From Faunimonas pinastri (GTDB lineage: Bacteria; Pseudomonadota; Alphaproteobacteria; Rhizobiales; Afifellaceae): a stretch of 64,000 bases of DNA. Of the stretch, positions 530 through 16,842 are shown piece by piece; positions within the stretch are counted from its first letter, which is position 1; the number at the start of each line of letters is the position of its first letter. Location of the stretch: positions 372,001-436,000 of the forward strand of contig NZ_FOFG01000001.1 of NCBI RefSeq assembly GCF_900110915.1. Reading direction: 5' to 3'. The notes beneath the pieces are model-generated. The model saw nothing but the letters and a program-made list of their open reading frames with translations. It was not told the origin of the DNA and ran no database searches. The position numbers and the translations under genes were made by a program.

Positions 530-3500
530 ATGACGATCAACCGCCGAACGCCCGGCAAACGCATCGCTTCCTTTGTCCGGGACTGGTCGCTGCCGCGGCA
601 GCTCGCCGGCGAGCCGTCCAAGTCGACGGCCGCGAAGAGCACGACATCCGAAAAGCTGCAGCCGCGCCTGAAGCTCGCCGACAAGGTCGGCACCTCGATC
701 TGCCCCTATTGCGCGGTCGGTTGCGCGCAGCTGATCTATGCCAGGAACGGCAAGGTCATCCACGTGGAAGGCGATCCGCGCTCTCCCGTGAATGGCGGCC
801 GGCTCTGCCCCAAGGGCGCGGCGACGATGGGCCTCCTCAACAATCCCGAGCGGCTGACGACGGTGAAGTATCGCCGCCCGCACGCGACGGACTGGGAAGA
901 GGTGCCGCTCGACTGGGCCATGGAGCGCATCGCCCGGCTCACCAAGCAGACCCGCGACGAGACCTTCGTGGAAAAGCTGGCGGACGGCACCGTTGTCAAT
1001 CACACGCTCGGCATCGGCGTGCTCGGCGGCGCGACCCTCGACAATGAGGAAAACTACCTCATGAAGAAGGTCTTCGGCGGCGGTCTCGGCGTCGTGGCGA
1101 TCGAGAACCAGGCCCGTCCCTGACATTCGTCGACAGTCCCAAGTTTGGGCGCGACAGTCGGGCGAGGGGCCGCCACCATGTCCCAGTGGGATCTCGTCAA
1201 TTCCGACGTGATCCTCGTCATGGGCTCCAACATGGCGGAGAACCATCCGATCGCCTTCCGCTTCGTCGTGGAAGCGAAGCAGCGCGGTGCCACGATCATT
1301 CACGTCGATCCGCGCTTCACGCGGACCTCGGCGCTGGCCGACATCTATGCGCCGATCCGCTCGGGCACGGACATCGCGTTCCTCGGCGGCATCGTTCGCT
1401 ATCTGCTGGAGAACGATCTCTGGTTCCGGGAATACGCGCTCCCCTACACCAACCTTTCCACGATCATCGAGGACGGGTTTCAGGCGCCGGAGGAATTCGA
1501 CGGCCTCTTCTCCGGCTGGGACGAGGAGAAGCACTCCTACAAGATGGACAGCTGGCAGTATGAAGGCATGGTGGTGCCGACCGCCAATGCCGATCATTCG
1601 GTCGAAGTCAGCGATCCCGAGAAGAAGCACGAGATGACGAAGCGGCCGCCGCGCCGCGACGAGACGCTGCAGGATCCGAACTGCGTCTACCAGATCATGC
1701 GCCGGCGCTTCGCCGCCTATACGCCGGAGATGGTGGAGCGCGTCACGGGCTGTCCGAAGGAAAGCTTCGTCAAGATCGCCGAAGCGATGGCGAAGAATTC
1801 CGGCCGCGAGCGCACGGGCGCTGTCTGCTATGCGCTCGGCTGGACGCATCACACGACCGGCTCGCAGATGATCCGCGCGGCGACGATCATGCAGGGGCTG
1901 CTCGGCAATATGGGCCGCCCCGGCGGCGGCGTGCTGGCGCTGCGCGGTCACTGCTCCATCCAGGGCTCGACGGATATCCCGACGCTCTACGAGATGCTGC
2001 CGACCTATCTGGCGCAGCCCAAGGCCGCCAAGCATCCGACGCTGGAGACGTACCTGGAGGAAGAGACGGTCCCGACCGGCTGGTGGACGAACCTGCCGAA
2101 ATACATGGTGAGCCTGCTGAAGGCCTGGTACGGCGAGCATGCCACGAAGGAGAACGAGTTCGGCTACCAATGGCTGCCGAAGATCGTCGGCGACCATTCC
2201 CAGTTCCCGATGACCTTCGCGATGACCGACGGCTTCATGCGCGGCATGTTCGTGATCGGCCAGAACACGGTGGTCGGCGGCATGAACGCCAAGCTGGTGC
2301 AGAAGGGCCTTGCCGGGCTCGACTGGCTGGTGGTGCGCGACAGCCACGAGGTGGAAACGGCGACCTTCTGGAAAAAGGGCACGCTGATCTCCGAAGGCGA
2401 GATGAAGCCGGAGGATATCGCGACCGAGATCTTCCTGATGCCGGCCTCGCTGCCGGGCGAGAAGGCCGGTACCTTCACCAACACGCAGCGCCTCGTCCAA
2501 TGGCACGACAAGGTGGTGGACGGGCCGGGCGACAGCCGCTCCGATTTGTCCTTCGTCTTCCATCTCGCCAGGCGGTTGAAGGAACTCTACGCCGAAAGCA
2601 CCGAAAAACGCGACGAGCCGATCCGAAAGCTGACCCTGGATTACCCCGTCATCGGCCCGCTGGAAGACCCGGATTCGGAAGCCGTGCTGCAGGAGATCAA
2701 CGGCTATACGACGGCGGACCGCAAGCTCGTCAGCGGCTTCAAGGCCCTGAAGGACGACGGCTCCACGGCCTGCGGTGGCTGGGCCTATTCCGGGCTTTTC
2801 CCGGAGGAGGGGAAGAACCTCACCCGCTCGCGCAAGGCCGATGGCCCCGATGGCAACGGCGCCCATCACGGCTGGGCCTTCGCCTGGCCCTCCAATCGCC
2901 GCACGCTCTACAACCGCGCCTCGGCCGATCCTGAGGGCAAACCCTGGTCGGAGCGCAAGAAGATGATCTGGTGGGACGAGGCCGAGGGCAAGTGGACCGG
3001 GCTCGACATTCCCGATTACGTCGAGGACAAGGCCCCGGGCTACCGGCCCGACTGGTCGAAGGAGCAGACCGGCATGGATGCCATTTCCGGTTCCGATCCC
3101 TTCATCATGATGCCGGACGGGCGCATGGCGCTGTTCACCCCGGCCGGGCTGAAGGACGGGCCGCTGCCGGCGCATTACGAGCCGGTGGAAACGCCGGCGA
3201 AGAACGCGTTCTACAAGGCGCAGTCAAACCCGGCTGCAAAGCGCTTCCACCGCAAGGGCAACGCCCTGCACGAGGTGGCCGACAAGCAATATCCCTACGC
3301 GCTGACGACCTATCGGCTCACCGAGCACCACACGGCCGGTGCGCCGACGCGCGGCGTTCCGACGACGGCGGAACTGCAGCCGGAAAGCTTTGCGGAGATC
3401 CCGCCGGAGCTCGCCGAAAAGCTGGGGGTGCGAACGCTGGACTGGGTGGTACTCTCCACCAAGCGCGGCGAGGTGGAGACGCGGGCCATGGTGACGGAAC

Positions 3501-7221: not shown

Positions 7222-7314
7222 TGGCGGAGGCGGATGGGAATCGAACCCACCACACGCGTTTGGCGTGTCTCTGGTTTTGAAGACCAGGAGGGCCACCAGA
7301 CCCCTGTCGCCTCC
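7222..7314 (-). tRNA. selC: selenocysteine tRNA, anticodon UCA
   Basis: Read on the minus strand, the RNA starts GGAGGCGA and ends CGCCUCCGCCA, so CCA is encoded. The anticodon arm is CUGGU-CUUCAAA-ACCAG, giving anticodon UCA, which decodes UGA. At about 93 bases it has the long variable arm (GACACGC paired with GCGUGU) and extended acceptor of tRNA-Sec. The T loop is UUCGAUU. It supplies selenocysteine for the formate dehydrogenase 3.5 kb away, after serylation and conversion by SelA, whose gene is also close by. Confidence 0.96.
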
Positions 7315-8433: not shown

Positions 8434-8682
8434 TCAGTCGTCGTCCCCCTGCAGCTCCTTCGGGAGCTCGCCGCCCTTGAACAGGATCACGGGATCCTCC
8501 CAGTTATCCACGTCGGGATTGCCAGTCACCGAGAAGGCGACGGCGCCTGCCTTGCGGTCGGATAACCGGCGCGCGGTGTCGATGGCCGCCTCCGGCGTCT
8601 TGTGCGACTGCTGCGGATCGGCGACGAGGCGCCTGCCTTCCTTCCGGAAAGCCTGGCTGATGAAGGCGGTAACGGTGCTCAT
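8434..8682 (-). CDS. 82-residue unknown protein coupled to selA
   Basis: The ATG at 8682 overlaps the selA stop (ATGA), and GGAAAG lies about seven bases upstream inside selA, so the two are translated together. The protein has an N-terminal helix ([15 protein letters not shown]), a middle VGN-type segment ([22 protein letters not shown]) and an acidic tail. It has no cysteine, membrane segment or signal. I do not recognise the family. Its fixed tie to selA could mean a link to selenium metabolism, or only convenience of position. In many genomes selB occupies this place; this protein is far too small to be SelB. Confidence 0.7.
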
Positions 8683-10091
8683 GCGGTCTTTCCAGTATCA
8701 AGGACATTTCGAAGCAGGGGCAACTGCTCGCTGAATCCTGCGGCATCGATAAGGCAGCGGAGATCGAGCAGCACCTGACCCGCCTGGATGCGGCCGATCA
8801 CCGGCTTCGGCAGCCGGCGGAGCGCCGCCGATAGCGCGTTGACGGAGCCGCCCGCTAGAGGCGTCAGGGCAAGGCCGGCGCTCGGCAGGAGGTCGGTCGG
8901 CAAGGCGCCGCTGCCGATCTGGCTGGCGCATTCCACCACCGCGACCTCGAACATGCCTGCCAGCGCCTCCGAAACGCGTGGCGCGATTCCGCCGGCCAGA
9001 AACGCGATCTCCTCGCGGGAACGGGTGAGGAGGCGCAGCGACGGCAGCCTTTCCCGCAGGCGCGGCACGTCGGCATAGAGGCGCAGGATCACGGAAAGGG
9101 CCGCGATCGTCATCTTGTCGCAGCGAAGCGCCCGTTTCATCGGGTTCTGCTTGATGCGCGCGATCAGGTCCTTGCGGCCGACGATGATGCCGGCCTGCGG
9201 GCCGCCGAGCAGCTTGTCGCCGGAAAAGGTCACGACGTCGGCCCCGGCGGCGATCGCCTCGCGCGGCGTCGGCTCGTGCGGCAGGCCGAACTGGCTCATG
9301 TCGATCAGGCTGCCGCTGCCGAGATCCTCGATGAAGGGCAGGCCGTGTTCATGGGCAAGAGCCGCGAGCTCGCGCTGCGGCACCTCCTTGGTGAAGCCCT
9401 CGATCTTGTAGTTGCTCTGGTGCACCTTCATCAGAAGTGCCGTTTCCGGACCGATCGCCACCGCGAAATCCTTGCGGTGCGTCCGGTTCGTGGTGCCGAT
9501 TTCGCGCAGCCGCACCCCGGCGCGCGCCATGATTTCCGGCACGCGGAAAGAGCCGCCGATCTCCACCAGTTCGCCACGCGAAACCGGTACCTCGCGCCCG
9601 GCGCCGAGGCTGTTCAGGGTGAGCAGGACAGCCGCCGCATTGTTGTTGACGACCGTCGCCGCTTCCGCGCCCGTCAGGCGGACGAGCCAGTCCTCCAGAT
9701 GATCGTCGCGGTCGCCGCGCTTGCCGGTCTCGAGGTCGAATTCTAGGTTCGACGCCCCGCGCGAGACGGCGACGACGGCCTCCAGCGCTTCCTCAGGCAG
9801 GGGCGCTCGGCCGAGATTGGTGTGCAGCACCGTGCCGGTTAGGTTGAAGACAGGCTTGAGGCTGTGGGCGTGGAGGGCGGCCAGCCACTCTCCGGCCGTC
9901 CGGACAAGCGCCTCCGTATCGGCCACCGCATCCTTGCCCGCCGCCAGCTCCGCCCGCGCGGCCGCCACGCTGCCGCGCAGCGCTTCCGTCGCCATGTCGC
10001 GGCCATGCCGCTCGATCAGCCGATGGGCGGCCGGGGTCTGCAGAAGCTGTTCGATGGCTGGAAGGCGCTGCCGGCGCGCATCGTCTTGCAT
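8679..10091 (-). CDS. selA: L-seryl-tRNA(Sec) selenium transferase
   Basis: This 470-residue protein is close to the 463 of E. coli SelA. The PLP enzyme turns Ser-tRNA(Sec) into Sec-tRNA(Sec) using selenophosphate. Visible family blocks include [38 protein letters not shown] and [13 protein letters not shown]. The PLP lysine of the last is residue 293 against 295 in E. coli. I took ATG at 10091 ([15 protein letters not shown]) rather than an upstream in-frame start because homology begins there and AGGGA precedes it. It works with selC and the UGA-containing fdoG in this window; selB and selD must be elsewhere. Confidence 0.96.
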
Positions 10092-10139
10092 GGGGCGGGA
10101 TCCCTGTTCCTGTCCTCTGGTAGAGCGGCGACCCGTTAC

Positions 10140-10175
10140 CCGCAACCACTCCCGCAACTACCCCCGCAGCCACCT
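10140..10175. repeat. three 12-bp imperfect tandem units upstream of selA
   Basis: Units CCGCAACCACTC (10140-10151), CCGCAACTACCC (10152-10163) and CCGCAGCCACCT (10164-10175) run head to tail about 50 bases before the selA start. They may be replication slippage in a C-rich tract or part of the leader. The rest of the 255-base gap shows nothing else clear. Confidence 0.5.
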
Positions 10176-14410: not shown

Positions 14411-14510
14411 GGGGTGTAGCTGTTAATGATGGAAGTGATTTGGCGTTCACGAAGGGCAAAGCGAAGTCCCAGTACGTTCAAATAGATTACTTTTCCTGAT
14501 CAAGAAGATG

Positions 14511-14538
14511 TTGCCGTACAAAATGTAAGCATTAACAT
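14511..14538 (+). promoter_or_regulatory. possible sigma-70 promoter of the DUF3644-like gene
   Basis: TTGCCG (14511-14516) and TAACAT (14533-14538) are spaced 16 bases in an AT-rich stretch 38 bases before the start codon. Each box matches 4 of 6 consensus bases. The AT-rich leader (14411-14575) contrasts with the rest of the window. Confidence 0.35.
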
Positions 14539-14575
14539 AGTCGATTAGAGCTCTTGAGGCGCTAGTGGGGCGAGG

Positions 14576-15769
14576 ATGGCACGTAGACCGGGCGGTAAGT
14601 TGGAGCGGTGGGAAGTAGCCATGATCAAGGTGATGCTCGAAACCAATCGCTACAACGATCAGGACATTCTTGCGCATTTTACACGCCCGACACGCTCCAT
14701 CAATCACCGCGAAGTTGGCGAGATCCGGAATGGAACCCGGCATCGATCAGTTCGAGCTGCCACGCCAGACCAGTTGACAGCTTTCCTTTCTTCTTGGCCG
14801 GACCACGATCCCGAGACCGGTTTACGAGTGCCGGGTGATGAACTGCTGATCAAAGCGCGAGAGGCGATGATAGCGGCAGTGCACACCTTCAATGGTGCGG
14901 GACTGACATTCCGGACAGAAATTTTCATCACAACAGCGATGATCGCATGGACATACTTGCTCCACGAATGGTTTCGCCGTGAGCAGATAGATTACAGATA
15001 TCGTCAGGGCGGTGAGATCAAGAAAACCAAGAACAACGCAGATATATATTGGGACCTAGGTAAGTGCTTGCGGCATGATCGATCGCCTCTGTCAGAAGGG
15101 ACACGCCATAATTTGGAATTCCTGCTGGAAATCCGACACGAGATTGAGCATCGCTTTACAAACAGGATTGATGAGGCGCTTGGGGCAAAGCTACAGGCAT
15201 GCTGCATCAACTTCAACTCGGCCATATGCGAGCTCTTTGGTGAAGGGTTCGGTCTAGAGAAGCGCCTTCCGCTTGCTCTGCAATTCGTCACATTTGATGT
15301 AAGGCATCAACTGGTTCTAAAGGCCGGACACGAACTGCCCCAGAATCTTGAGACTATGATTGATCACTTCCATGAACGTCTGACCGACGCACAACAGAGC
15401 GACCCTGCCTTCGCGTATCGCGTTGCCTTTGTTCCAAAAGTGGGAGGAAAGGCGAGCCGGTCTGATGCTGCTCTGAAGTTCGTTAAACCGGACACTGAAG
15501 AGGCTAAAGAGATCAGCCGTATCTTGCTGAAAGAAGTAGATAAGCGACGGTACACCGCCACAGAGATTGTCCGGGAGATGCAAGCAGACGGGTACGATCG
15601 TTTCAATCAAACAGCGCACACCAAGCTTTGGCAGGCGCTAGATGCTAAGCGGGCAGATAAGGGGTTTGGTCGGCCGGGGGACTACGATAGAACATGGGTA
15701 TGGTTTGACACATGGCTGGCCCGTGTACGTGCCCACTGCCAAGAGAACGCTGAGCGGTACGCTCCATGA
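14576..15769 (+). CDS. DUF3644-like protein with HEPN-type Rx4H motif, probably acquired
   Basis: This 397-residue protein resembles DUF3644 proteins. Residues 10-60 (NDQDILAHFTRPTRSINHREVGEIRNG) look like a DNA-binding head. Residues 85-240 are helical (TEIFITTAMIAWTYLLHEWF) and contain LEIRHEIEHRF, in which R187 and H192 form the Rx4H motif of HEPN ribonucleases. The last 75 residues look like a winged helix. GC is about 50% over 14641-14700 and 45% over 15481-15540, against 63% in the next gene, pointing to transfer. HEPN proteins often serve in toxin-antitoxin or anti-phage systems; no partner gene is seen. Its stop overlaps the ligase start (ATGA). ATG at 14576 keeps the whole N-terminal block. 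Confidence 0.8.
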   Translation: MARRPGGKLERWEVAMIKVMLETNRYNDQDILAHFTRPTRSINHREVGEIRNGTRHRSVRAATPDQLTAFLSSWPDHDPETGLRVPGDELLIKAREAMIAAVHTFNGAGLTFRTEIFITTAMIAWTYLLHEWFRREQIDYRYRQGGEIKKTKNNADIYWDLGKCLRHDRSPLSEGTRHNLEFLLEIRHEIEHRFTNRIDEALGAKLQACCINFNSAICELFGEGFGLEKRLPLALQFVTFDVRHQLVLKAGHELPQNLETMIDHFHERLTDAQQSDPAFAYRVAFVPKVGGKASRSDAALKFVKPDTEEAKEISRILLKEVDKRRYTATEIVREMQADGYDRFNQTAHTKLWQALDAKRADKGFGRPGDYDRTWVWFDTWLARVRAHCQENAERYAP

Positions 15770-16842
15770 TCCTCTCCACCCTCTCCGTCCTGACCTCCAC
15801 CCGCTCCATGGAAGCCAAGCTCGTGGATGGGTTGCCGGAGGGGAAGGGGTGGCAGTTCGAGCCGAAATGGGATGGCTTTCGCTGCCTGGCCTTCCGCGCG
15901 GGCGACGAGGTGGAGCTTCACGCCAAGTCCGGCAAGCCGCTTGGGCGTTACTTCCCGGAAATCGTCGCGCTGCTGAAGAGCCTGCCGCAGGAGCGCTTCG
16001 TGCTGGATGGCGAACTCTGCATTCCCGTGGGCGATACGCTCTCCTTCGACGCCTTGCAGATGCGGCTGCATCCGGCGGAAAGCCGCATCCGCAAGCTGTC
16101 GGTCGAGACGCCCGCCGTGCTCGTGCTCTTCGATTGCCTGATGGACCCGGCCGGCGAAAACCTGATGCCGCGTCCGTTCGCCGAGCGGCGCGAGGCGCTG
16201 GAGCAATTCTTCGCGGCCGCCGGCGGCATGGCCAAGGGCCTTCGCCTCTCGCCCTTCAGCCGCGACCGGGATGAGGCGCAGGGATGGCTCGACCGTGCGG
16301 GCGGCGCCATCGACGGGGTCGTGGCCAAGCGGCTCGCAGATCCCTATCAGCCGGAAGAGCGCGCCATGCTGAAGGTGAAGCGCATGCGCACGGCCGATTG
16401 CGTGGTCGGCGGCTTCCGCTACGAGACGAAGGGGCGGCAGGTCGGCTCGCTGCTGCTCGGGCTCTATAACGAGGCCGGCACCCTCGACCATGTCGGCTTT
16501 ACCTCAGGCTTTGCCGATCAGGATAAAGCGGAGCTGACGGCGCGGCTGGAAGCCATGCGGGGCGGCCCGGGCTTCACCGGCAACGCGCCGGGCGGGCCGA
16601 GCCGCTGGAGCACGGAGCGTTCGGCGGAATGGGTGCCGCTGCGGACGGAGCTCGTGGTGGAAGTGCGCTACGACCACATCACCGCCGACCGCTTCCGCCA
16701 CGGCACGAAGATCGTCCGCTGGCGGCCGGACAAGGCGCCGGAGCAATGCACGCTGCAGCAGCTGGAACGCGAGGCCCGCCCCTCCGAGGTCATTTCCCGG
16801 GTGGTTGGGGCGCCGGCGGTGGAGGCCGGCGGGCGGGGGTGA
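15766..16842 (+). CDS. ATP-dependent DNA ligase, LigC-like
   Basis: This 358-residue protein has the ligase nucleotidyl motif EPKWDGFR with adenylated Lys34. The later motifs are LDGELCIP, FDALQMRLH, DGVVAKRL and KVKRM. The OB-fold domain occupies roughly residues 220-350. It seals nicks in DNA with ATP, and in rhizobia such ligases are tied to end-joining or base-excision repair. It lacks the polymerase and nuclease domains of LigD, and no Ku gene is in the window. The annotated ATG overlaps the upstream stop; Met15 (15808) is an alternative that still keeps the catalytic part. Confidence 0.92.
   Translation: MILSTLSVLTSTRSMEAKLVDGLPEGKGWQFEPKWDGFRCLAFRAGDEVELHAKSGKPLGRYFPEIVALLKSLPQERFVLDGELCIPVGDTLSFDALQMRLHPAESRIRKLSVETPAVLVLFDCLMDPAGENLMPRPFAERREALEQFFAAAGGMAKGLRLSPFSRDRDEAQGWLDRAGGAIDGVVAKRLADPYQPEERAMLKVKRMRTADCVVGGFRYETKGRQVGSLLLGLYNEAGTLDHVGFTSGFADQDKAELTARLEAMRGGPGFTGNAPGGPSRWSTERSAEWVPLRTELVVEVRYDHITADRFRHGTKIVRWRPDKAPEQCTLQQLEREARPSEVISRVVGAPAVEAGGRG

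Follow-up and report, generated by a model that had tools for sequence, protein, structure and literature searches.

A horizontally acquired DUF3644/PDC-S19 gene of Faunimonas pinastri as a candidate single-gene HEPN abortive-infection effector

The window analysed here, a 64,000-nt stretch of Faunimonas pinastri DNA (contig NZ_FOFG01000001.1, positions 372,001 to 436,000), carries a gene of the DUF3644/PDC-S19 family, which we read, with a probability of about 62%, as a horizontally acquired single-gene HEPN RNase that serves as an abortive-infection effector. The encoded protein is most likely a self-contained abortive-infection RNase, whose activity and trigger we infer. The family assignment and the HEPN nature are prior knowledge, confirmed here for this gene, and the gene is a good example of a kind already catalogued, and does not define a new one. 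The features discussed below are as follows (window coordinates).

14411..14575, + strand: AT-rich leader of 165 bp, from the DUF1003 stop to the DUF3644 start (GC, Rfam, fold and promoter scans)
14576..15769, + strand, stop included: DUF3644/PDC-S19 gene, 397 aa (ORF, Pfam and PADLOC matches)
14576..14809, + strand: N-terminal head, about aa 1–78, helix-turn-helix-like (model, weak structural matches)
14840..15238, + strand: HEPN core, aa 89–221 (AlphaFold helices, structural matches)
15134..15151, + strand: predicted Rx4H catalytic motif, R187-H-E-I-E-H192 (homologue alignment)
15548..15757, + strand: C-terminal tail, aa 325–394, winged-helix-like (model, structural match)
15766..15769, + strand: ATGA overlap of the DUF3644 stop with the predicted start of a ligase gene (15766–16842)

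Family membership and predicted domains

PADLOC places the protein in the PDC-S19 profile (E 1.5e-104, aa 88–394, profile positions 13–323 of 325), as a single gene and with a match that omits the head (aa 1–87). PDC-S19 is a single-gene phage-defence candidate in PADLOC. The one Pfam domain above cut-off is DUF3644 (PF12358), which matches aa 89–268 over profile positions 1–182 of 183 (E 7.4e-56), and the score of 189.1 bits against a curated cut-off of 27.6 makes the protein a member of this family. A search of NCBIfam gave no match and PHROGs gave a weak one (phrog_9605, function not assigned there, 2.7e-6), while no relative of solved structure was found by sequence. DUF3644 has been named among the HEPN families (Anantharaman et al. 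2013, PMC3710099), and the window protein resembles that family in its full-length domain match, HEPN core and Rx4H motif, differing by an additional helix-turn-helix-like head at the N-terminus. Our literature searches found neither a functional study of any DUF3644 protein nor a publication on anti-phage activity of PDC-S19.

The original prediction placed an HEPN core with an Rx4H motif in this protein, and both parts stood up to modelling and alignment. In the AlphaFold2 model (pLDDT 82, falling below 50 at residues 237–245, 287–292 and 318–321), the predicted fold is that of an HEPN four-helix core, with helices at residues 89–106, 114–135, 174–192 and 203–221, the third of which ends in R187-HEIE-H192. 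HEPN proteins take the top ranks in VIA-align, namely Csm6 (Z 10.1), AF_0298 (10.0) and HepT (9.9), and make up most of the leading matches, with Z values of about 8–10 and an rmsd of about 2.5–3.6 Å over 113–136 residues. Foldseek returned no significant E-value, the rows of better probability being HEPN proteins, and comparison with a viral fold library gave no useful match. For a helical bundle a Z of about 10 is a moderate value, and the HEPN assignment therefore draws jointly on fold, profile and motif. Loss of the Rx4H pair was looked for in close homologues, which retain it: across 75 full-length homologues, R187 is present in all 75, and E191 and H192 in 74 each, the lone H192 exception being an H192P substitution at locus L070. 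In an alignment of 48 diverse members, R187 and E191 fall among 18 invariant columns and H192 is nearly invariant. This near-absolute conservation points to catalysis as the probable role of these residues.

The head and tail had been described as DNA-binding-like and winged-helix-like, respectively, and both shapes are weakly supported by the models. Folded alone, the head reaches a pLDDT of 77 and has four helices (11–23, 28–35, 44–52 and 64–73), with weak matches to the helix-turn-helix domains of CENP-B (Z 5.0) and to phage small-terminase DNA-binding domains (Z 4.4–4.6); Bacteroidota relatives (L119, a Flavobacterium plasmid) align without it. The tail superposes on the winged helix of a MerR-type regulator over 57 residues (2.2 Å, Z 4.9). 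With Z values near 5, these matches are leads towards nucleic-acid binding by the head and tail, not proof of it.

Foreign origin and insertion site

A foreign origin of the gene is well supported by its third-position composition, the patchy distribution of the family, its nearest relatives in Sphingomonadales, and the copies on plasmids and viral contigs. Compared within the window, GC3 is 55.4% against 86.1 ± 3.2% in the 31 other genes (z = −9.5), and the GC of the gene region is the lowest of all gene-sized stretches. The overall values are 52.7% for the gene, 45.5% for the leader and 66.7% for the rest of the window. The 45–50% given in the original prediction is corrected accordingly, 45% being reached by the leader alone. 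GC also lies below that of the flanks at 76 of 80 sampled homologue loci, a sample that includes a few repeats of one locus, with a mean difference of −7 points. This is the picture of a mobile family, and the window gene is not adapted to its host.

Presence of the gene in all relatives was looked for and the gene proved absent from most: counting the window's own genome, the family occurs in 8 of the 101 nearest, and it occurs in 17 of 385 genomes of the class (4%). The 66 loci found in species genomes lie nearly all in Alphaproteobacteria, with identities of about 37–71%. On a quick tree, the window gene falls in a Sphingomonadales group, where it pairs with Sphingomonas L056 (support 99), whereas its host is, like Methylopila, a member of Hyphomicrobiales, and the order labels on this tree require 17 changes against a least possible 7. 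DUF3644 copies were found on 30 plasmid records and two viral contigs, and a search of phage records gave one distant match alone (24% identity). Of the recent acquisition originally proposed, the acquired nature of the gene is borne out.

The leader had been credited with a promoter of its own, for which we found no counterpart in a sigma-70 consensus scan of the + strand, although promoters of this organism may depart from so simple a consensus. A search of Rfam with the leader gave no match, its predicted folding shows no excess RNA structure (z = +0.85), and it has no similarity to the leaders of homologues; on these three grounds an RNA antitoxin in the leader was rejected.

The gene lies between a DUF1003 gene and a gene for a stand-alone ATP-dependent DNA ligase, neither of which is the core gene that had been supposed. 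In a search of the 21 nearest genomes, counting that of the window itself, a DUF1003 homologue occurs in 6 and a strong ligase match in 3, and none of 21 ligase orthologues elsewhere in the order (397 genomes) adjoins a DUF1003, ABC or DUF3644 gene; the flanking genes are not syntenic across the order. Since the stop codon of DUF3644 and the ATG of the ligase overlap, the two genes may be translationally coupled, probably by an accident of insertion. The N-termini of the ligase orthologues in genomes G001 and G014 differ, and the window ligase may therefore no longer have a leader of its own. Elsewhere in the window, tRNA-Sec (7222–7314) and selA (8679–10157) indicate a selenocysteine system in the host.

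Genomic company and alternative explanations

The absence of a partner, which the original prediction had noted, holds at the window locus and in its clade (L056, L057, L060, L062 and L114), whose members share no neighbour; it does not extend to other clades, which adjoin type I, IIG and IV restriction, AbiEii and HicB-like genes. No restriction-modification gene was found beside the window copy, and PADLOC detected no other clear defence gene in the window, only generic mad3/mad8 ATPase matches. A conserved protein partner was rejected, as the top neighbour family is common to no more than 7 of 73 loci. The protein shares with HepT of HepT/MntA the HEPN fold with an Rx4H motif, and differs from it in being a long multi-domain protein with no adjacent MNT nucleotidyltransferase antitoxin gene.

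Among sister clades, the immediate neighbours include type IIG methylase-nucleases, HsdS, HsdR and a type IV methyl-directed nuclease (mREase), with further NaeI, type ISP, AbiEii and TOTE genes. For comparison, 130 genes were sampled at 20 arbitrary positions across 14 genomes of this class; their 25 commonest families, which give a comparison and not a full count, hold no restriction nuclease and comprise ordinary metabolism and orphan (CcrM-like) methyltransferases. Smaller groups have company of their own. In L072 and L074, DUF3644 is preceded, 17 bp upstream, by a gene for a HicB-like antitoxin (5666–5983 in L074, where it lies behind a relaxase-like gene), a possible antidote confined to this one small clade. 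In a related clade (L097, L099 and L107, from different orders), a co-oriented gene of about 312–338 aa lies about 40 bp upstream of DUF3644, and the leaders of L098 and L106 are similar as well. On three related Phaeobacter plasmids (L124, L128 and L129), DUF3644 stands beside DUF3768 and a ParB-type partition gene, near VapBC.

A bolder form of the immune reading has a low probability: a one-protein immune RNase with DNA sensors of its own, whose head and tail would directly recognise a feature of DNA that is invading or damaged and would thereby free the HEPN core, with no need of an antitoxin, a guide or a second messenger. Such a protein would have been joined time and again to various restriction systems, as a suicide module open to exchange. 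Also of low probability is an RNase module of restriction systems that would kill the cell if restriction fails, with the window copy separated from its partner and now idle or eroding. This reading draws on sister clades, where HsdS, HsdR, type IV and IIG restriction genes precede the DUF3644 copy by 2–150 bp, and on the EC042_2821 family, which overlaps DUF3644, has a conserved active site and is linked to restriction-modification operons (PMC3710099). The window protein resembles this family in its HEPN core and, through its tail, in the winged-helix-like C-terminal region (Z 4.9); EC042_2821-type proteins carry in addition restriction-endonuclease and zinc-ribbon parts, neither of which Pfam recognised in the window protein, and their operon setting recurs in the sister clades but not at the window copy. 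The host genome also has no clear type I methylase (one weak N6_Mtase match alone), and elsewhere insertion sequences have disrupted the gene, as in L004 of genome G088, where it is split by an IS5-type insertion (about 2320–3145), or a copy is shortened, as on pRL12, where an IS66 element follows. Against this reading, the window ORF is intact and retains every near-invariant residue, its clade has no common restriction partner, and the family also occurs alone on plasmids.

It is improbable that the gene is a selfish addiction toxin left behind on the chromosome by a plasmid, conjugative element or prophage: the copies on viral contigs and those on plasmids and mobile elements near partition, relaxase and toxin-antitoxin genes would suit such an origin, but addiction requires a labile antidote, and a conserved adjacent antitoxin is absent across the 73 loci. 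A host regulator that binds DNA through its two helix-turn-helix-like domains and keeps the HEPN core as a mere scaffold, as in MtlR, which is among the fold matches, is very improbable given the near-absolute conservation of R187, E191 and H192 and the patchy, mobile nature of the gene.

A probable self-contained abortive-infection RNase

We return to the abortive-infection effector as the main reading. By analogy with HEPN enzymology, the protein would act as a dimer, and its two Rx4H motifs, brought together, would cleave RNA (tRNA or mRNA) without a metal. The head and tail, as their weak fold matches suggest, may bind nucleic acid and hold the RNase off, either by keeping it on its own operator in a form of self-repression or by sensing invading or damaged DNA. 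Infection would release the RNase, with abortive infection as the outcome suggested by the genomic context, and no protein or RNA antitoxin would be needed at the window locus. As the trigger, we favour two readings: that DNA is sensed directly, or that self-repression is relieved.

The role in defence that the original prediction proposed is argued from the genomic company and the listing of the family, and its partner-less locus is borne out. Counted against an abortive-infection effector are the restriction linkage, which is concentrated in one clade of 14 that lacks the window gene, the window without another clear PADLOC defence gene in a host with one weak N6_Mtase match, the H192P exception, the Z values near 5 behind the DNA-binding assignments, and the low-pLDDT stretches. 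DUF3644 proteins occur widely, are mobile and figure among listed defence candidates. With an intact stand-alone member whose head, core and tail can be told apart, and with relatives of which some have restriction partners and others do not, the trigger of a partner-less HEPN RNase becomes directly testable.
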